Shown one piece after another: positions 3,888-48,170 of a DNA stretch of 64,000 nt. The stretch's first letter is position 1, and each line of letters opens with the position of its first letter. Source of the stretch: Morinoia aosen (Eukaryota; Arthropoda; Malacostraca; Amphipoda; Talitridae); NCBI GenBank assembly GCA_030386875.1, contig CM059563.1, positions 11,674,001 through 11,738,000 on the forward strand, read 5' to 3'. The notes under the pieces are model-generated. The model was not told where the DNA came from. It made no database searches and saw nothing but the letters and a program-made list of their open reading frames with translations. Made by a program: the position numbers and the translations under genes.

Positions 3888-23294
<19,407 letters not shown>

Positions 23295-37100: not shown

Positions 37101-40100
37101 GCTCCCAAAGTAAGTGCCAATGCAGTGACAAAAAGAAACAATGATGAATTAAGTAGTTGAAAATTAAAGAGAGAAATCCTAATTTTGGTATGAAAATAAT
37201 GTTTTTGTTGAACAAATAAATTGATTGGTGCTACCTTGTTCACTGTTCAATCGAAAGAGTTCATACTGTCTTGTTGTTGGAGGTATTTCTCAATCTCGTT
37301 CAGATTCTCGGTTTTCTTCTTGATTAGGAATCAACTGACATCATTTCACCTGCAATACTTAGACTAGTTGCTCAATTTGCACGTTTTGCCTTAAATGATT
37401 AAATAATATATATTTCCAATGAAGGCAATGCAGATGCAGCTAAGCAGCTCGGAGGTGCTGCTGTTGAACACCGCCCTGCCGCTGCAGCTACGCTGTGAGT
37501 GGCGGCTGCTCTTCTCCAACCACATACACGGTGACAGCTTCAGCCTCCTCATGAAGCAGGTTGGTCTGGACTCTTGTCCAGCGGGAGCACGGGGCATATA
37601 CACCAAGTGCAGTGCACAAGCATTTAATAGAATTAAGTATGGCAACGGCAACAAGCAAACTAGAATTGCCAGCAGACTAACAGACTTGGCAGCGACAAGC
37701 AGTTGCTGCCGAGTCCCATGCCGTCCAATACCAAAACCCACGAGCATCATAGTAGGAGCAGTGAAGGTGGCTAGCAGTTGTTTTCAGGGTACAGTCATCA
37801 GTGTTCTTTTACAGCAATTCGTTTTGATGTTAACAAGCTGTATATAACAAAATACAGTTATAGTCCCCCTCAGGGGGAAACAGGTCTATGGGAATTAGCG
37901 CTCCCAGGGAGATTATGTGAGGGCCTGAGCTAAAGGTTAGGCAGGCTTCCTTTTGTTGAAATAGAATAGGTTTTTGTTTTGTTACTGACCAGCTTTTTTC
38001 GGTTCACTGCTGTCCTGTTTTTCAGCATCTACTACTTTCTTCTTCAACTTTTTCTTGTTTCATGAACTTCTTTCTTAACTTCCTGTTTCTGTGCACCTTG
38101 TGCATAGATTCCGCGTTCCCTCAACTCCATACTAAATTTTGCCTTCCTCCTTCCTCTCTTAGAACATCTTTGTCGTGCAATTAAGGGACGCTAAAACCTT
38201 CTTATATAATAATAATAATAATAAAAATAATAATAATACAGTTATAGTTTTCTATTCAGTTGATCCAAGTTACCTTGTATGATGTTTGATGCTCCAATGC
38301 GGAATTTTTTTAAAATTATGGACAAAAAGTTGGGGTTAGTTTGGTTTGTCTTATCAAATTCTTTGGGGGCTGGTACTCTTGGGGGGTTACTTTTAGGTTA
38401 CCTCTGCCATGAATTGATCATCAAAATGTATTTTTCATGCCCACTTAGCTTCTGTCAGGTTTTATGCCTTCTTTGCTATCTCTTCTTTGTTTTATCGTCC
38501 TTTTTCTTCTTAACTTTTTGTTTCTGTGTGCAGGGTATTCTGTTTTGGGAACACACTTTGTGCATTGGTTCTCCGTTTTCTTCAGTCCATGTCAAATGTT
38601 TCTTTTCATTGATTTCTTAAAATTGCCTTTGTTGTGGATAAGGGAGTATTTCAAGTTCTTCACGTCTTCAAATAAAAAAATCACTCAACATATTTTTACT
38701 GCATCAATGTCAATGCAGATCGTGGGCGTGGGGCCGTCACTCGTGGTGGTGGAAGACGAAGACGGCAACAAGTTTGGAGGCTTCGCGTCGGCGTCGTGGG
38801 AGGTCCGGCCACAGTTCCATGGTCAGTGGTGGCGTGGCGACTCTGAGCTAAGCTATGAATTAGGGACGATGAGTTGCTTGTTTGTGTAGATTTTGCTACC
38901 ATTAATAGGGTTGTACCGGCGCAGTTGGGCGTACATATGTTCGTACGTAGGCGAGATCAACGCCCTGTTGCGGGGTATCGCAATGCGGGTGCTTGGTCAG
39001 CAGATTTGAGGTAGTATAAATTAGCGTGCGCGGCTTGTGGAGTCGCATTTGGTCTGTGTTCCTCCCCTGTACAACATCTCTACAAGAATACAACTGTGCC
39101 GATCTTTAAACAATTGAAAATGACACAGAGCACTGCGGCAGAACATCCGACCTGGCTACATAAAAAAATTCAAAACCTGCAAAATTCTTTACTCAACTGG
39201 GTTCACAGCAGCACAGCTGACGCCGCAGCTGTTGTCAAGGTCACGCGCTGTCGCGTGCACTGCCACCACCGTCTTGGCGACGCGCAGCTGATCCCAAGGT
39301 CACACGCTGAGCGCTTGGAGTCGGGAGAGCAATAGCGCTTGCACTGTACTCAGCGCGCAGAGTCGATGTGTGTTCGAAGTCCCACACTGCACGTTATTAG
39401 CACCGCTCACAGTTTATCAAACCTTTATACTAACACTGTTCAGTATGCAACCTGGTACTACATACACCACGCACTATGTCGTTGCAGATGTTGAATCACT
39501 TTCGTCGTTCGTAGAATGTCCAATCACACTTGCACAGATGAAGTGAAACTCGTAGGCGTCCATGGCACTCCTACTGCCGATCTCGGTGGAAGTTTACGCA
39601 AAGTTGCAGGTTGCAGAAGTCGCCGTCTCTTTCTAAAGACAGACGTACCTTGTAGGCTTCACCAAGTGGTACGTGGAACTCCAGATCGTATGTATTTTGC
39701 AGCCTTTCTTCCGAAACACGTCGCACAACAATACGAAACACGTTATCGTATGCTTCTTGGACTTTTCTTCCTGTGACCGACCCGTTGTCCATATTATTTC
39801 GTCGTTACTGCCAGACTGATCCACTTCTCACGGAGTGATGCGCAGACTCCCTCTCGTAGAAGGCACAAATAATTTCCATCACCAGACGATCTTCACGGAA
39901 GTCTCTTGAACTTTTTGACGTTACCTCCGCCGTCTTGATTCGCCGAAGTCACTGGATCACTTTCACACTCACAAGCACAATTTCTTCACGTCGTGGGTCC
40001 GACACCCAAATAGCCACCAGTGTGACGGCCGAAGGGTAGAGATAACGCTGGTTAACTGCGACGTTTTACTTGTAGAGATGTTGTACAGGGGAGGAACACA

Positions 40101-43100
40101 GACCAAATGCGACTCCACAAGCCGCGCATGCTAATTTATACTACCTCGAATCTGCTGACCAAGCACCCGCATTGCGGTACCCCACAACAGGGCGTTGAAC
40201 TCGCCTACGTACGAACATATGTACGCCCAACTGCGCAACTGCGCCGGTACAGGGTGAGTTGCTGTAAATCTTGGCGATATGTCCCGTGATGTTTCTGCAA
40301 ACAGGTATTATTTGAGGCGTAAATATTTGAATGACTAGCTGGTTTGGTTAAAAGGAAAAATTATCGGGCAAAATTTTACGCAATAATTTAGGTCATTAAA
40401 AAAATTATTGTATGAACTATGATAATTTTTATGCACAATACAGGTTTTTGGTATGAACATTCTTGGCTGCAGACAACATACCATTTTGAATTTTTTATGT
40501 TATTTTCAAATGTGCGTTACATCTGATGAATCTTTAACAAATTAATTTACACGTGTCTATGTTCAAGCATGTTTCATCACACAGAAAACCTTCCCTTTCT
40601 CCTGAGTAGCTTGTGTAGGAATAAAAATAATAAATATAAATGTAAATATTTATGTTTATATTAATAATAAATAAATAATGTTTATTTTACAAATGTTTAT
40701 TTATTTTAATTAATGTTTATTTTACAAATGTCACGGAAATTTAAAATCATTCGGACAATTCTTAGTTAATTTTGTGGGGCTGGAAAACTGCAAAATGGCC
40801 TCAGTTCTGAGGAAAAGCCCGAATACATTGCTTTAATAAGTTTGATTATATTTTCAATACTATAGTTATGAGGTTCCCCAAACGTGCTAGCGAGTACTTG
40901 GGCTTAGGAGGACTAACTCTTGTAGTGAGTGATGCATCAAATTTTGTGCCAATTACTGAATTTTATGCAGAAACTAAATTCGAGTGTCTTCCACCTGCTC
41001 TTCTCCATAGATCCCCCATTGTTTTTCTTTGTCACTGTCGAACGCAGTTAATTTTATTCCGGTTGACTTTATCAGGAATAGTTGAGCTAAAATATTTGTT
41101 CAATGCTCAGTTTCAGTAGAACAAATCCCTTTCATTGATAAAATGAGTGCTGGTATTAATTTATCTTCACCTCATCCTTCAGTCAGCTTGTGGGTAACAC
41201 CAGCAGCTGCTACAAGGAATCAGTGATTCTGCAAGGAATCAGTGGAATCACCAGTCATGCTCCCATCATCAGAGCCTATTTGAATTCTAAGCACTCCTCT
41301 ATAAAATTTACCGTCGAAATTAAAAGTAACAACTGTCAATAATTTTTAAATTTGACAACCACTGTAAAAGGTCGTACTTTTAATTCATCTGTTTTTCGGA
41401 ACACTACTTTCACTGATTTAAGATCTTTGTGAATTGAGCATACAATATTTGTTCAAATTATGTGGATCTACTTGATGAATTTACTTTCCTGTGAAATTTT
41501 CTTTGTAAAAACGAGCTTCCTTCTATAATTGTCCATGTTCATATTGAAATATTCCTGGCTAAAAAGCATTCAAAAACTAGTACTCTTACACAGGCAGGCA
41601 ATACAACACCTTAATTGTTTTTCCCGTATTTTGGCCACGAGATTTGGAGATCCTTTTAAAATGCAACAAAGGCCTGATTTGTAAAATAATGCAGACACTT
41701 GTGTATACGTTTAGTTGTATACATTAACCATCTAGCTATTTTGGCATGACGACTTTGCCATTCTATGTTAAGACTGCTTAGCATCGTGAAGTCAGCTACC
41801 ATTGTGGGAGAATTTTGACTCAACCACCTCTCTAGTCCACTGGTTTTCAAAGTGAATGGTGCGGCTACTGCATAGCAGAAGACCGTTTTACTATATTTTT
41901 ACTTCTAATGATTCAGACATGCGTAATTTAGAGTCTTTCTTCATAGAACAAAGACCAGTCCTTAATAATACAAATTGTTCACTTCCATTACATATTTATG
42001 TGTAGATTTTTCATGCATACTGGAAGTGTTACGGATCGACTAAATTAATTTCTTTTCTTAATTTTCACTGACTGACTTAAGATAAAGCTAGTCTCCAAAA
42101 CATTTTACAGAAGGAATGGATTCTTTGTAATTATTTTATAAGACGTAATGAAATTTTAACAACTATGATTTCAATGTTAACTGCTATCTTCGTTTTCAAG
42201 TTTCTGAAGGTCGTTTGACTGAAAAAAACTGAATTATTTCAGTATAATCTAGTGTTCAAAGTACGGCTGAGAGTGTGAATACAGGCAATATAATGTGGTG
42301 TTGCAGGTGTGGCAGAGAGTGTGAATACAACATAATGTGGTGTTGCAGGTATGGCAGAGAGTGTGAATACAACATAATGTGGTGTTGCAGGTGTGGCAGA
42401 GAGTGTGAATACAACATAATGTGGTGTTGCAGGTGTGGCAGAGAGTGTGAATACAACATAATGTGGTGTTGCAGGTGTGGCAGAGAGTGTGAATACAACA
42501 TAATGTGGTGTTGCAGGTATGGCAGAGAGTGTGAATACAACATAATGTGGTGTTGCAGGTGTGGCAGAGAGTGTGAATACAACATAATGTGGTGTTCCAG
42601 GTATGGCAGAGAGTGTGAATACAACATAATGTGGTGTTGCAGGTGTGGCAGAGAGTGTGAATACAACATAATGTGGTGTTGCAGGTATGGCAGAGAGTGT
42701 GAATACAACATAATGTGGTGTTGCAGGTGTGGCAGAGAGTGTGAATACAACATAATGTGGTGTTGCAGGTATGGCAGAGAGTGTGAATACAACATAATGT
42801 GGTGTTGCAGGTGTGGCAGAGAGTGTGAATACAACATAATGTGGTGTTGCAGGTATGGCAGAGAGTGTGAATACAACATAATGTGGTGTTGCAGGTGTGG
42901 CAGAGAGTGTGAATACAACATAATGTGGTGTTCCAGGTATGGCAGAGAGTGTGAATACAACATAATGTGGTGTTGCAGGTATGGCAGAGAGTGTGAATAC
43001 AACATAATGTGGTGTTGCAGGTATGGCAGAGAGTGTGAATACAACATAATGTGGTGTTGCAGGTATGGCAGAGAGTGTGAATACAACATAATGTGGTGTT

Positions 43101-46100
43101 GCAGGTGTGGCAGAGAGTGTGAATGCAACATAATGTGGTGTTCCAGGTATGGCAGAGAGTGTGAATACAACATAATGTGGTGTTGCAGGTATGGCAGAGA
43201 GTGTGAATACAACATAATGTGGTGTTGCAGGTATGGCAGAGAGTGTGAATACAACATAATGTGGTGTTCCAGGTATGGCAGAGAGTGTGAATACAACATA
43301 ATGTGGTGTTGCAGGTATGGCAGAGAGTGTGAATACAACATAATGTGGTGTTCCAGGTATGGCAGAGAGTGTGAATACAACATAATGTGGTGTTCCAGGT
43401 ATGGCAGAGAGTGTGAATACAACATAATGTGGTGTTCCAGGTATGGCAGAGAGTGTGAATACAACATAATGTGGCGTTGCAGGTATGGCAGAGAGTGTGA
43501 ATACAACATAATGTGGTGTTCCAGGTATGGCAGAGAGTGTGAATACAACATAATGTGGTGTTGCAGGTATGGCAGAGAGTGTGAATACAACATAATGTGG
43601 TGTTCCAGGTATGGCAGAGAGTGTGAATACAACATAATGTGGTGTTGCAGGTATGGCAGAGAGTGTGAATACAACATAATGTGGTGTTGCAGGTATGGCA
43701 GAGAGTGTGAATACAACATAATGTGGTGTTGCAGGTGTGGCAGAGAGTGTGAATACAACATAATGTGGTGTTCCAGGTATGGCAGAGAGTGTGAATACAA
43801 CATAATGTGGTGTTGCAGGTATGGCAGAGAGTGTGAATACAACATAATGTGGTGTTGCAGGTATGGCAGAGAGTGTGAATACAACATAATGTGGTGTTCC
43901 AGGTATGGCAGAGAGTGTGAATACAACATAATGTGGTGTTCCAGGTATGGCAGAGAGTGTGAATACAACATAATGTGGTGTTGCAGGTGTGGCAGAGAGT
44001 GTGAATACAACATAATGTGGTGTTCCAGGTATGGCAGAGAGTGTGAATACAACATAATGTGGTGTTGCAGGTATGGCAGAGAGTGTGAATACAACATAAT
44101 GTGGTGTTGCAGGTATGGCAGAGAGTGTGAATACAACATAATGTGGTGTTGCAGGTATGGCAGAGAGTGTGAATACAACATAATGTGGCGTTGCAGGTAT
44201 GGCAGAGAGTGTGAATACAACATAATGTGGTGTTGCAGGTATGGCAGAGAGTGTGAATACAACATAATGTGGTGTTCCAGGTATGGCAGAGAGTGTGAAT
44301 ACAACATAATGTGGTGTTCCAGGTATGGCAGAGAGTGTGAATACAACATAATGTGGTGTTCCAGGTATGGCAGAGAGTGTGAATACAACATAATGTGGTG
44401 TTGCAGGTATGGCAGAGAGTGTGAATACAACATAATGTGGTGTTGCAGGTATGGCAGAGAGTGTGAATACAACATAATGTGGTGTTCCAGGTATGGCAGA
44501 GAGTGTGAATACAACATAATGTGGTGTTCCAGGTATGGCAGAGAGTGTGAATACAACATAATGTAGTGTTGCAGGTATGGCAGAGAGTGTGAATACAACA
44601 TAATGTGGTGTTGCAGGTATGGCAGAGAGTGTGAATACAACATAATGTGGTGTTGCAGGTGTGGCAGAGAGTGTGAATACAACATAATGTGGTGTTGCAG
44701 GTGTGGCAGAGAGTGTGAATACAACATAATGTGGTGTTGCAGGTATGGCAGAGAGTGTGAATACAACATAATGTGGTGTTGCAGGTGTGGCAGAGAGTGT
44801 GAATACAACATAATGTGGTGTGGCAGAGAGTGTGAATACAACATAATGTGGTGTTGCAGGTGTGGCAGAGAGTGTGAATACAACATAATGTGGTGTTGCA
44901 GGTATGGCAGAGAGTGTGAATACAACATAATGTGGTGTTCCAGGTATGGCAGAGAGTGTGAATACAACATAATGTGGTGTTCCAGGTATGGCAGAGAGTG
45001 TGAATACAACATAATGTGGTGTTCCAGGTATGGCAGAGAGTGTGAATACAACATAATGTGGTGTTGCAGGTATGGCAGAGAGTGTGAATACAACATAATG
45101 TGGTGTTGCAGGTATGGCAGAGAGTGTGAATACAACATAATGTGGTGTTCCAGGTATGGCAGAGAGTGTGAATACAACATAATGTGGTGTTCCAGGTATG
45201 GCAGAGAGTGTGAATACAACATAATGTGGTGTTGCAGGTATGGCAGAGAGTGTGAATACAACATAATGTGGTGTTGCAGGTATGGCAGAGAGTGTGAATA
45301 CAACATAATGTGGTGTTGCAGGTGTGGCAGAGAGTGTGAATACAACATAATGTGGTGTTGCAGGTGTGGCAGAGAGTGTGAATACAACATAATGTGGTGT
45401 TGCAGGTATGGCAGAGAGTGTGAATACAACATAATGTGGTGTTGCAGGTGTGGCAGAGAGTGTGAATACAACATAATGTGGTGTGGCAGAGAGTGTGAAT
45501 ACAACATAATGTGGTGTTGCAGGTGTGGCAGAGAGTGTGAATACAACATAATGTGGTGTTGCAGGTATGGCAGAGAGTGTGAATACAACATAATGTGGTG
45601 TTGCAGGTGTGGCAGAGAGTGTGAATACAACATAATGTGGTGTTGCAGGTACGGCTGAGAGTTTCCTGTTCAGCCTGCGCCCGTACGCCGGCGTGTACCG
45701 CAGCACGGGCTACAACACCAACTACCAGTATCTCAACTACCTGCACAACAACACTATGCCCAACGGCCTGGTCAGTCACTAATTCTTCAGATTCTCTCAT
45801 GACTCTTGGCTAATTTAACCTTATTGTTCCTTGCAATACCAATGAGGGGGAGGTTCATGAAGACGGTTTGTTTTATTTTATAACTGTTGAAGCGTGGTTT
45901 ACTTGAGTAAATAATTGTTAGGTCATTTTTATATTACTTTTTGTGATTGTCTTGCTTTTGAATCGTCATGTTAGAGGTAACGCTACATTGAACTTGGCAT
46001 TACCGTTTCATCTTTGCGTCAAATTTGTAATTTTCATGTAGGAGTGTAAGAGTGTCGTGGTGTGGAAGAGGGCATTAAGAGTGTCGTGTGTGCACAGGGC

Positions 46101-48170
46101 TTGGGCGGGCGCGAGGAGCTGTTCGGGATGTTCCTCTCGTACGACTTCGGGGAGTGCACCGTGGCCCCTTCGTGCACCACCTACGCCAGCCCCGCCATTT
46201 GCCCCAACCTCGCCCCCCGCGTGCGCCGCCTCACCGTCTGGGGCGTGGGGGAGGAGCTCAAAGACTCTGACGATGACAGTGACGAGGTCAGACAAAATCA
46301 CGTCGCCCTGCGCGATGTAAACCTGCGTAACGGGTCAAATTCATGTTTTCCTGCAGTTGCTTGTCAGTAAAATTTTGGAAATGTAGAACCAGTCACCAAA
46401 AGTGAGTTTAATTATGTAGTTTCGAGATTTTTTTACTGAATTATTATTTTTGGATGCCAAAGTAATCGGTTTTTAGAATTCGACTCGGGGAAAATCATGC
46501 CGCTAATTGTTTCCAGTTCTCTTCCTGGTGCTTCGAGTGCTGCGTCACACACGTGGTTGTAAAATAAGTGTTGGCTCTTCTTTATGTGGTCACCGCGTAT
46601 CGTGTTAGAAGCGTTGGCTGAGCTCAATTCTTAGAATTTTTTCTCTGTGCGTCGTACAATTGCTGCTTACGTGGTCAAATTGTTGTGCGCCCGTGGCAGG
46701 TTGTGTGAGTGCACACTGGTCTACAACCATTCACCAGAATTCTGCGTTACTTCAACAATATCCAGATTCCAGTTCTCTCTAATAACTAGAATGGCTAATT
46801 TTTTAACCATCCCGAAGTGTTCAGTGAACAAAATGTGCTTGCATATTCCATCACTGAAAACAAATGAAAGAAATTAACGTCCATCAGAATATTTGTTGAT
46901 GCACAAACACTTTCGAAAATTGTGCTGTCTCGTAGTAGCTCGCCTTGGTGCAGTTTAGTTGCAGCTTCTAGACGCCAAAGTTCTGCTCTAAGCTACTTTG
47001 TTAGGAAATTTTAGTTGTTTTCAATGTCGGTGTTTTGTTTATTTAATTATGGGCTATTGGTTCAATTTATTACTGTGTGGATTTATTCTTAATTTCTACT
47101 ATTTTGACTAATTTTCCTGTCTTGAATTACTAGAATACTGGGATTGTCATTCTGTTTATTACTAGAAACAGCACTCGCTTGCAGCAAAAAGGATACCTAG
47201 TTACTCTTGGTGACAGCATGCTGACATCGTTTTCCTCAGTTTCCCAACACACGTAGCGTTCTCAGTTGTGCCTTGAACTGCCATCAGTAGGTTCAGCATC
47301 ACACTGGTTGTTTAAATTTGTTGTGAAGTTCAGTTTTAGAATTGGGTGATTTTTACTTTCAGTTTTCTCCTACCTGAGGAAATGATTTTGTGGTTTTGAA
47401 GACTAGAGAATGAAAAGCACTTCTTGTCTGATTTTCTTGTCTTTGGTTTTGGTAATTTTTGAATTAAAGGTCACACAGCACCACGAAATGTGATTATGTC
47501 AACCTGTGATCATTTCTTAGGATGAGTGTGGCCTGCTTTGCATCTAAATAGGAAAAATGGGTCTCGTGAAAACAGATTGAATTTACCAGAAAAACGTGCT
47601 GTGGCCAAGTAAAAATAAGACTGAGTGGCAATAAAAATCCCCACCTGTAGTTTTGCAGCATTTGAATTATGTGCTTTATTGCTCAAGCTACTTGATTTTA
47701 ATCGAATAGATTGTCTCGTTCATTGAGTGCCCATTCTTTTCAATTTTAATTTTTAAATAATTTTCTCCATAAGATGCTGGGGACTGTGCACCTGCATAAG
47801 AGTAAACAATATCGTGAACTATATATGACTCTTTTCGTGTCACAATTCTTCCGTCTTATACATGGAAGTGCAGCTCCTACAACTTATGTCTGGTGTGAAG
47901 TCATGCAACTTCTCACAAGCCTGCAGTTCTCACCTTGCCTGCAGTCGAGTACGTTTTGTGTGAGGAACCTGAACTAAGCAAGTCGTTGATTCTGACTTCC
48001 TTGTATTACTCCTATTACTAGAGAAAGTAATGCAGTTACATATACTCTCGCAGGGAACTCGGAGGAAGAAGCCCAGCGCCTTGGACCGAAATCCTGAGGC
48101 TCGGGCTATGTTGGATATGATCGGCCGCACGAGGGCGAGTGAGGGACTCAGAGAGCCGGAGCAGCAGTGA
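31024..48170 (+). CDS. MEAK7: MEAK7 / TLDC1 (EAK-7) homologue, complete, 10 exons
   Basis: TLDc-domain regulator of TOR and FoxO signalling. In animals EAK-7/MEAK7 sits on membranes, including the lysosome, through an N-myristoyl anchor. Exons: 31024-31167, 33935-34102, 34835-34900, 35949-36095, 36939-37109, 37434-37559, 38719-38821, 45649-45770, 46098-46286, 48054-48170. They total 1353 nt (450 residues), close to the 456 of human MEAK7. The start MGAEGSKN fits the myristoylation pattern (Gly2, Ser6). The TLDc core (about residues 230-410) includes CEWRLLFSNHIHGDSF, FGGFASASWEVRPQFHG, FLFSLRPYAGVYRSTGYN and PNGLGLGGREELFGMF. The C-terminus ALDRNPEA...GRTRASEGLRE matches the conserved MEAK7 tail, which OXR1 and NCOA7 lack. 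Introns 1-6 are phase 0 and intron 7 is phase 1. No promoter motif was recognised before 31024. Confidence 0.92.
31494..31758. mobile_element. Foldback element A, copy 1 (near-perfect hairpin)
   Basis: About 265 bp in which the two halves are complementary: ccccctattacaaacgtaaa pairs with its complement at the right end, and the centre is caagatggcggcagccatcttgg at 31,632-31,654. Related sequence extends outward on both sides. In MEAK7 intron 1. Confidence 0.88.
31988..32533. mobile_element. Foldback element B, copy 1
   Basis: 546 bp with ends ggtaaatctgaaggatatga and its complement (ccttcagatttacc). It is inserted in the extended arm of element A: the arm sequence before it (aacccatttaaaaacgtt) continues after it (tacatgaatgacattctg), as shown by the unbroken copy near 57,600-57,640. 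Confidence 0.85.
32611..32775. repeat. Fragment of element B
   Basis: Carries the right-half blocks of B (taaatactcatttg, gcatagatgaaaagtt, ttaattatcatgac-like, catctccttcacattaacc), degraded, between copies B1 and B2. Confidence 0.6.
32999..33535. mobile_element. Foldback element B, copy 2
   Basis: 537 bp, from ggataaatttgaaggatatg to tccttcagatttacc, with the same internal blocks as copy 1 (cttaccgcaactccagtgtt, atgagtagctgtttattcga). In MEAK7 intron 1, about 400 bp upstream of exon 2. Confidence 0.82.
33935..34102 (+). CDS. MEAK7: MEAK7 exon 2
   Basis: 56 codons in phase 0, AFCAKSGEEISKLFITLLKK to NPDPAVQ|GTATTT. It corresponds to the variable N-terminal helical part of MEAK7. It was assigned by phase and position; the similarity itself is weak. 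Confidence 0.78.
34835..34900 (+). CDS. MEAK7: MEAK7 exon 3 (66 nt)
   Basis: 22 codons, AEVLASMAGTSGGAVTSNDL plus VQ, between acaacag and GTGAGA. It is in phase on both sides. The sequence is poorly conserved, so the call rests on splice sites and frame. Confidence 0.68.
35185..35540 (+). mobile_element. R-family SINE-like retroposon with target-site duplication
   Basis: 356 bp, flanked by actagcttgtgc (35173-35184) and actagctagtgc (35541-35552), 11 of 12 identical. It starts cctctcagagggatacaact and ends (A)ATCAATCTA. In MEAK7 intron 3. Confidence 0.85.
35949..36095 (+). CDS. MEAK7: MEAK7 exon 4
   Basis: 49 codons, VVTTVIESYSSLQSV through REWLHALLFGDASHKK, with acceptor tttgcacag and donor AAG|GTTACA. 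It corresponds to the EDLVGSVV-type segment of vertebrate MEAK7. Confidence 0.78.
36939..37109 (+). CDS. MEAK7: MEAK7 exon 5 (just before TLDc)
   Basis: 57 codons, TVEMAVPSAAVSQAALERWL, then a hydrophobic stretch VAVYCVVQVTVLRALVLPTL and FPQIIAPK. The W-[LV] then hydrophobic pattern matches the MEAK7 segment before the TLDc core. The donor AAA|GTAAGT is strong. Confidence 0.85.
37434..37559 (+). CDS. MEAK7: MEAK7 exon 6 (TLDc start)
   Basis: 42 codons. SSEVLLLNTALPLQLRCEWR and LLFSNHIHGDSFSLLMKQ match the opening TLDc motif (W-x-L-L-F-S-x-x-x-H-G-x-S-F). The acceptor lacks a good pyrimidine tract (atgaaggcaatgcag). Confidence 0.9.
37865..38234 (+). mobile_element. R-family SINE-like retroposon with 14-bp target-site duplication
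   Basis: 370 bp, flanked by a perfect direct repeat aatacagttatagt (37851-37864 and 38235-38248). It starts ccccctcagggggaaacagg and ends in an (AAT)n tail. In MEAK7 intron 6. This pattern means target-primed reverse transcription. Confidence 0.9.
38370..38665 (+). mobile_element. Possible very diverged R-family copy
   Basis: Block order (ttcttcttaactttttgttt, gcagggtattctgttttggg, aacacactttgtgcattgg, gttgtggataaggga) follows R, but the head is poorly matched. It lies directly before MEAK7 exon 7. Confidence 0.45.
38719..38821 (+). CDS. MEAK7: MEAK7 exon 7 (TLDc)
   Basis: It encodes IVGVGPSLVVVEDEDGNKFG then GFASASWEVRPQFHG and ends in phase 1 at CATG|GTCAGT. FGGFASxSWEV is the signature TLDc strand. 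Confidence 0.93.
38912..40251. mobile_element. 1.34-kb TIR DNA transposon, non-autonomous, TSD GGGT
   Basis: Terminal inverted repeats of roughly 180 bp (left 38912 to about 39090, right from about 40075). Both ends start tgtaccggcgcagtt when read inward and are flanked by gggt (38908-38911, 40252-40255). The right end has an extra gcgcaac block. The interior has only short ORFs. TGT...ACA termini with a 4-bp duplication recall Ginger-type elements, but the fifth base is C where Ginger usually has a purine. In MEAK7 intron 7. Confidence 0.85.
40256..42084 (+). other. MEAK7: MEAK7 intron 7, middle part
   Basis: AT-rich sequence between the TIR transposon and the E fragment. Includes a small simple region (aataaataaataatgtttat, about 40,620-40,730). 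Nothing else recognised. Confidence 0.65.
42085..42236. repeat. Half copy of element E, next to the 42-bp array
   Basis: ctagtctccaaaacatttta, ggattctttgtaattatttt, tatgatttcaatgttaac and aagtttctgaaggtcg align in order with the right half of E at 59,610-59,770. It ends about 35 bp before the minisatellite starts. Confidence 0.68.
42271..45648. repeat. 42-bp minisatellite, about 80 units, abutting MEAK7 exon 8
   Basis: Period 42 (ttgcag at 42301, 42343 and so on to 45643). Unit parts: gtgttgcaggtatggcagag, then agtgtgaatacaacataatg. Main variants are ttgcag/ttccag and gtatgg/gtgtgg. Two units (44,821 and 45,484) lack the same 9 nt and lie exactly 663 bp apart. The first partial unit (42271) and the exon (45649) both read gtacggctgagagt. 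42 is a multiple of 3, so all three minus frames and one plus frame stay open for over 1000 codons or hundreds of codons. These are not genes. Confidence 0.97.
45649..45770 (+). CDS. MEAK7: MEAK7 exon 8 (TLDc), directly after the 42-bp array
   Basis: It starts with GT completing a Gly codon, then TAESFLFSLRPYAGVYRSTG and YNTNYQYLNYLHNN...PNGL|GTCAGT. Its acceptor cag (45646-45648) is the last repeat junction of the minisatellite. The first exon bases, gtacggctgagagt, are a variant of the repeat unit. Confidence 0.93.
46098..46286 (+). CDS. MEAK7: MEAK7 exon 9 (end of TLDc)
   Basis: 63 codons, GLGGREELFGMFLSYDFGEC, then PSCTTYASP, LTVWGVGEE and an acidic end DSDDDSDE|GTCAGA. G-x-G-G...CTTYxSPxL...VWxVG is the TLDc C-terminal signature. 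GC-rich, unlike the surrounding introns. Confidence 0.93.
46287..48053 (+). other. MEAK7: MEAK7 intron 9
   Basis: 1.77 kb of unique-looking AT-rich DNA; no exon or repeat recognised. Confidence 0.7.
48054..48170 (+). CDS. MEAK7: MEAK7 exon 10 (last)
   Basis: 38 codons and TGA. It reads GTRRKKPSALDRNPEARAML then DMIGRTRASEGLREPEQQ. ALDxxPEAxAxL and SxGLRE are the conserved tail of MEAK7 that separates it from other TLDc proteins. Confidence 0.9.
   Translation, partial: GTRRKKPSALDRNPEARAMLDMIGRTRASEGLREPEQQ

Follow-up and report, generated by a model that had tools for sequence, protein, structure and literature searches.

How splicing settles on one acceptor when a single intron offers dozens that look alike is the question raised by intron 7 of the MEAK7 gene in the amphipod Morinoia aosen, which lies in the 64,000 nucleotides analysed here (positions 11,674,001 to 11,738,000 of contig CM059563.1, assembly GCA_030386875.1; this whole stretch is called the window, and coordinates without a contig refer to it). 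The downstream half of the intron is a minisatellite of 42-bp units, nearly all of which repeat the junction between the end of intron 7 and the start of exon 8. Very probably, this is a mostly neutral minisatellite that was born from the splice junction and lies across the exon 8 acceptor (a ‘mirage’, as such arrays are called in amphioxus), and it would be tolerated rather than used.

The exons concerned lie on the forward strand, as does the array, and are numbered as in the initial annotation of this DNA. Exon 7 (38719..38821) belongs to the TLDc domain; its putative start is ATCGTG, after an acceptor-like AG, and it ends with ..CAT G at 38821 (..CAGTTCCATG), followed by GTCAGT. The frame of this exon is IVGVGPSLVVVEDEDGNKFGGFASASWEVRPQFHG, the sequence reads ..GGFASASWEVRPQFHG, and the open frame matches the TLD domain. 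Intron 7 (38822..45648) has 6827 nt, of which the array takes up 3388 nt (50%). Exon 8 (45649..45770, 122 nt) starts with the bases gtacggctgagagt behind the acceptor ttgcag|gtacgg and ends at the donor CTG|GTCAGT; exon 9 (46098..46286, GLGGREELFG..DDDSDE), whose probable ends are placed by frame and GT, forms with it a peptide that carries the TLD domain. When joined, exons 7 and 8 read PQFHG|TAESFLFSLRP and align without gaps to mEAK-7 of PDB 7u8o (E 2.2e-47), in which the stretch aligned to the join is ..PQFQGDSKCFLFS / PQFQGDSKCFLFSICP. Because of this gapless alignment, the last array junction (45648/45649, phase 1) is the true acceptor and there is no spacer between array and exon, which is how the initial annotation had described it. 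Exons 7, 8 and 9 have one match each in the whole assembly, which yields no second haplotype or paralogue with which the array length could be compared.

Tandem Repeats Finder reports a single array at 42261-45662, with a period of 42, 81.3 copies and 96% matches. The 42-bp unit consists of 28 intron bases and 14 exon-like bases, and the array runs contiguously into the true acceptor. Junctions of the form GTxxGGCxxAGAGT occur at 82 positions, 79 of which read AG|GT (78 inside the array and the true exon 8 acceptor), a figure that had been given as approximate and is in fact exact; the classes are 57 AG|GTATGG, 21 AG|GTGTGG, 1 AG|GTACGG (the exon), 2 TG|GTGTGG and 1 AA|GTACGG (the left edge). 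AGGT is counted 79 times in 42261-45650, versus 10 times in 38822-42228, the 3407 nt of intron 7 before the array. On the left stands a degenerate first copy, unit 0 (42229..42274), with 32 intron-like bases and the 14-mer gtacggctgagagt, its junction being AA|GT at 42260/42261; the 14-mer occupies 42261-42274 and does not start at 42271, where the first partial unit had been placed before. The intron part of unit 1 (42275..42306) follows, which has the old 46-bp form and ends in ttgcag, and then 80 later units (42307..45648), 78 of 42 bp and 2 of 33 bp, each starting with GT, then A or G, then TGGCAGAGAGT. The two 33-bp units are identical, and the two TG|GT junctions come after them.

Among 76 of these 80 units (both 33-bp units and the two units after them are left out of the count) just 5 of the 42 columns vary, which argues for a recent amplification. 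The variants fall into types A-I and their differences are structured. More specifically, the units of GTG type (n=23) are distributed as 10 in units 1-20, 11 in units 57-80 and 2 between, and a pattern of eight units reappears 16 units further on, both of which point to the exchange or slippage of blocks. Copies at the edges have escaped homogenisation, since units 0 and 1 keep the old 46-bp form and 21 of the 23 GTG-type units are in the first 20 or last 24. The exact core 23-mer of the unit has 32 occurrences in the 1.99-Gb assembly, all within this array. Selection on AG|GT was considered and dropped: its four columns show no substitution among the 76 units, but the units were picked for AG|GT and most of the other columns (37 of 42 in total) are just as constant, so that nothing follows from this.

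That the array grew from the 3′ splice junction of exon 8 itself, as the initial annotation had proposed, is well supported by the exact 14-base exon start at both edges and by the degenerate intron end that precedes it on the left. Both strands of the window have the 14-mer gtacggctgagagt at 42261-42274 and 45649-45662 only. Directly before its left copy stands the intron part of unit 0, which in register shares 20 of its 32 bases with that of unit 1; elsewhere in the 1.5 kb upstream no match to the unit 1 bases is better than 16 of 32, and 0 of 20,000 shuffles reach 20. The protein alignment reads the real exon in frame through these 14 bases, which gives the direction as exon to intron. The oldest unit most likely measured 46 bp (32 of intron and 14 of exon), the 42-bp form having been amplified later. 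Specifically, a tandem duplication would have taken in 32 bases from the end of intron 7 together with 14 from the start of exon 8, as indicated by the pair of old copies on the left; a 42-bp derivative would have been amplified and homogenised via unequal exchange or replication slippage, and amplification may also have proceeded in many-unit blocks, judging from the recurring eight-unit pattern.

An exact 14-mer at both ends is also what a target-site duplication would leave, and the array might be an unrelated minisatellite or inserted element that abuts the exon by chance, flanked by a target-site-like duplication of 14 bp. This origin is highly improbable in view of the 20/32 match to the intron end, which lies in the same register before the left 14-mer (at most 16 is found elsewhere in the 1.5 kb upstream), while an exon begun at the upstream CAG would, read by hand, run into TAA at once (G|TA TAA). 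An assembly artefact in the length or order of the array has next to no probability. It is true that long arrays of near-identical units are hard to assemble and that the two 33-bp units lie within repeated blocks; however, the structured differences between units, with GTG types mostly at the array ends, speak against it, as do the confinement of the core 23-mer to this place and the single match of each of the three MEAK7 exons.

What such an array would mean for splicing was approached with a rough consensus matrix set from general knowledge, to which all splice-site scores given here refer. Donors score 9.4-9.5 in the array, 9.7 at the exon 8 start and 6.3 at the native exon 7 donor, and acceptors score 4.5-5.5 in the array versus 4.85 at the true exon 8 site; the earlier description of every junction as both acceptor-like and donor-like is thus borne out as anatomy. 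The acceptor of the last unit is weak: pyrimidines make up 45% of the 20 nt that precede AG, and a YTNAY branch-site word is absent there. The acceptor region of exon 9 has 45% pyrimidines as well. Joining exon 7 to an array junction gives ATG|GTATGG or ATG|GTGTGG, a re-created donor with a score of 6.5-6.8, and since this is about as good as the native donor, a mistaken acceptor could be spliced again. Of the 79 AG|GT junctions, 78 would, if read through, meet a stop after 9 codons, and the remaining one is the true exon. RNA structure gave no clear signal, with z-scores of 0.54 and -0.40 for array stretches and -1.80 for the left edge, where 10 of 200 shuffles fold as well.

The authentic acceptor is kept by the copy next to exon 8, all others being intron. 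Splicing most likely proceeds as usual: exon 8 would be defined backwards from its own donor, and the first acceptor met in this way is that of the last copy. If an upstream copy were used by mistake, the re-created donor (..ATG|GTATGG) could be spliced on to a later copy, giving the same mRNA; if no further splicing took place, the early stop would presumably cause the message to be destroyed. Because a mistaken choice would be either respliced or presumably lost with its message, the array can be regarded as tolerated rather than used. For dog and similarly mutated introns, PMC3223203 reports that donor and branch site lie at least ~50 nt apart. A single 42-nt unit is probably too short for an intron. 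Both the splicing behaviour and the neutrality of the array are what we infer from its anatomy.

The stops behind the array junctions could alternatively serve a purpose. In that case array sites would compete with the true acceptor and lower the output of MEAK7 via nonsense-mediated decay, and the length of the array would tune expression. The stop after 9 codons at all array junctions with AG|GT fits this proposal, and so do array donors that outscore the native exon 7 donor. We nevertheless think such a decoy or poison extension unlikely, given that acceptor scores in the array and at the true site are alike and that, in the parts of PMC3087553 and PMC3902484 drawn on here, regular splicing is undisturbed by the mirages of amphioxus.

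A further alternative starts from the re-created donor. The AG|GT junctions could be recursive sites (zero-length exons) at which intron 7 is removed stepwise, each acting as acceptor and then as donor, with the donor of the next unit, 42 nt on, as the donor of a cryptic recursive-splicing exon. The excerpts of PMC8605326 describe the Drosophila ratchet point as AG|GT plus a cryptic exon of ~50 nt with a downstream donor, and nearly all units of the array carry AG|GT plus a further CAG|GT 42 nt on, with a re-created donor on par with the native one. Of the signals of a ratchet point, those on the donor side are good (9.4-9.7) and those on the acceptor side weak (4.5-5.5). Against this alternative stands the last unit, which, as described above, is pyrimidine-poor and lacks a YTNAY word; the units are too similar to reveal conservation; and in flies, according to passages of PMC6110457, recursive splicing seems confined to very long introns, to which intron 7, with 6827 nt, does not belong. 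Stepwise removal of this kind is quite unlikely. Its fullest form, in which the array is a concatemer of ~78 ratchet points and the intron end is removed in self-correcting steps, each wrong acceptor choice re-creating a donor and being spliced again until the true exon alone remains, strikes us as very unlikely; if it were true, junction-born arrays would be safe to grow, since AG|GT would allow errors to be repaired. Any role of the array in recursive splicing or in regulation is at best a possible one. The initial annotation had suggested, as one option, that the copies serve as decoys, recursive sites or a regulator of exon 8, and this finds no support: the last unit has a weak pyrimidine tract and a weak branch site, the differences between units are uninformative on selection, and in the sampled exons junctions are not copied more often than ordinary positions of the intron (see below).

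Some observations weigh against a neutral, junction-born array and should be set beside these results. First, array donors outscore the native exon 7 donor, and therefore some use of array sites would be expected. Second, 2 of the 60,395 other window positions outside the array match the unit 1 intron bases equally well, at 20/32 (one among the 42,197 upstream, the other among the 18,198 downstream), so that the identity of the intron part of unit 0 rests on its exact register beside the 14-mer. Third, the 14-mer of unit 0 is intact while 12 bases of its 32-base intron part have changed (P = 0.006 on the assumption of evenly spread changes, calculated post hoc), a combination that is not predicted by a simple old neutral copy.

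Arrays of a comparable kind, which the initial annotation does not mention, have been described in amphioxus. According to the excerpts of PMC3087553, mirages are tandem repeats across an intron-exon boundary, on the acceptor or the donor side, with AG/GT in many units, edges spared from homogenisation and an unstable length, and those of Adh3 and globin do not interfere with regular splicing; passages of PMC3902484 add splice-site repeats in lancelet PGBD5 and the absence of aberrant mRNAs from the Adh and TnC mirages. The MEAK7 array resembles the amphioxus cases (Adh3, BflGb6, BflGb9, TnC, PGBD5) in its boundary-spanning duplication, its many AG/GT units and its unhomogenised edges. It differs from them in its 42-bp unit, in belonging to an arthropod-like and not a cephalochordate genome, and in copy number, which is 80-odd, whereas those excerpts give 6 units for one BflGb6 haplotype and 3 for the other. 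Drosophila ratchet points, as far as the same passages of PMC8605326 and PMC6110457 go, likewise have AG|GT juxtaposed and a donor some tens of nucleotides downstream, whereas in MEAK7 the junction recurs dozens of times where a 6.8-kb intron ends, and the pyrimidine tract is weak. With a unit that spans intron end and exon start, 79 of 82 junctions reading AG|GT and edges left unhomogenised, the array is classed here, by its sequence features, as a mirage and not as a recursive site. It is consequently a striking new example of something already described in amphioxus and not a new kind of thing, and, as far as the papers searched show, a mirage in an arthropod-like genome represents a new lineage. 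Passages of PMC4974935, and the AGGT model in the review PMC3443670 in its excerpted part, also present new introns as a possible outcome when the end of an intron is duplicated along with the start of the exon behind it. The MEAK7 array shares with this route the ready-made splice signals that such a duplication provides; in contrast to it, no new exon or intron is evident in the MEAK7 array, whose copies sit in an existing intron with a stop in the exon frame.

Are splice junctions then favoured birthplaces of minisatellites in this genome? Minisatellites are plentiful, and a listed set of 15 arrays makes up 13.7% of the window. The survey covered exons of two families, myosin head (79 matches) and kinesin (126 matches), from which 60 loci were cut and 50 used after the removal of 10 near-duplicates, some of the 50 still overlapping; 14 AMP-binding loci were excluded because these genes look intronless, and matches to ABC transporters are likewise outside the sample. 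Splice sites were placed by the rough matrix, apart from the acceptor of locus L056, which was set by hand from the protein frame, and a second donor of L031, which was added by hand and excluded from the counts. In a strict test for shared 24-mers, copies were found for 2 of 38 acceptors and 1 of 41 donors, versus 3.5 expected from control positions in each case, and one of the two acceptor matches is a probable alternative myosin exon. A gapped test of 84 boundaries gave 6 of 43 acceptors (9.3 expected) and 6 of 41 donors (9.4 expected). Six of these 12 matches lie in a repeated myosin exon cluster on contig C1 and probably represent alternative exons, those of L021 and L058 are weak (score 17), and four are left over, namely the donors of L033 and L050 and the acceptor and donor of L056. 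An enrichment of arrays at splice junctions as a rule of the genome is thus rejected, junctions being if anything rarer than control positions in both tests, to which no significance test was applied. Within 1400 bp of the sampled exons, with 6 further loci left out, arrays cover 3.5-11% of bases per distance bin. A pile-up on the acceptor side was also rejected, coverage in the 50 bp before acceptors being 7.7% versus 7.6-10.9% further out, on numbers too few for a claim; on the donor side it is 3.5% versus 4.7-9.9% (41 and 38 boundaries in the coverage count). Since junctions as a class are not enriched, the process looks generic: the genome spawns intronic minisatellites, and now and then one is born across a splice site.

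Several such births can be seen in the sample. In the kinesin locus L056 (G000:C11 near 22590492), presumably of KIF17 type by its sequence, 53 copies of CAG|ACCTG occur in 1.5 kb, the true acceptor CATTGCAG|ACCTGAGCC included and last; the units are mostly of 21, 23 and 31 bp, the array extends to the edge of the locus, and the donor of L056 has a close copy ~100 bp downstream. In the kinesin locus L051, 3.3 copies of a 152-bp unit extend across the acceptor, an array found by eye and caught by neither junction test. On the donor side, the exon end RNFHIFYQ plus a GTAAGT donor is repeated 4.3 times in 62-bp units in the myosin locus L031 (G000:C17 near 12316329), and the kinesin donor GTCGACCCTCAG|GTGGGGG of L050 (G000:C21 near 3726494) has a good copy ~400 bp downstream (score 37). 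The myosin donor of L033 is accompanied by ~24 copies of a 62-bp unit in which TTCCAG resembles the exon end, most units reading TTCCAGGAGGTC, without AG|GT. Acceptor-side and donor-side cases therefore both occur in Morinoia aosen, as they do in amphioxus.

Other large minisatellites of the window are found in an upstream gene with VWC, VWD, C8 and TIL domains, which we take to be crossveinless-2 / BMPER-like. Those at 11012-11955, 13797-14801 and 19511-20212 end 66, 59 and 35 bp before an acceptor-like site. At 13137-14801, an array of 22-bp units abuts one of 32-bp units; in both, the unit starts with TCCGAT[C/G]TTTC and contains the acceptor-like word ACAGCAA. The two form a compound array, one perhaps derived from the other. 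Elsewhere in the assembly, TTAGG repeats give 6769 + 8723 overlapping matches, and six myosin-head matches at G000:C1:35644596-35648320 fall on one stretch of the profile (about 376-436), that is, at least six copies of one muscle-myosin exon, which are probably alternatives. TTAGG repeats and a multi-copy myosin exon are arthropod-like traits. On G000:C27, matches of two kinds are clustered at ~55.1-72.7 Mb, AMP-binding (9 of 14) and ABC-membrane (27 of 72), many with long uninterrupted frames, possibly as bacterial sequence in the assembly or as a large transfer.

With 79 near-identical junctions of acceptor and donor type in one intron, the MEAK7 array offers a natural experiment on the choice of a 3′ splice site, in which candidate rules for choosing among equal sites, (i) the nearest to the exon, (ii) the first after the branch point or (iii) recursive use, can be set against each other. 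With it, minisatellites across splice junctions are no longer confined to amphioxus but are also seen in an arthropod-like genome, in which a small sample already holds more examples, and the array may make visible the first step of the tandem-duplication route to new introns.

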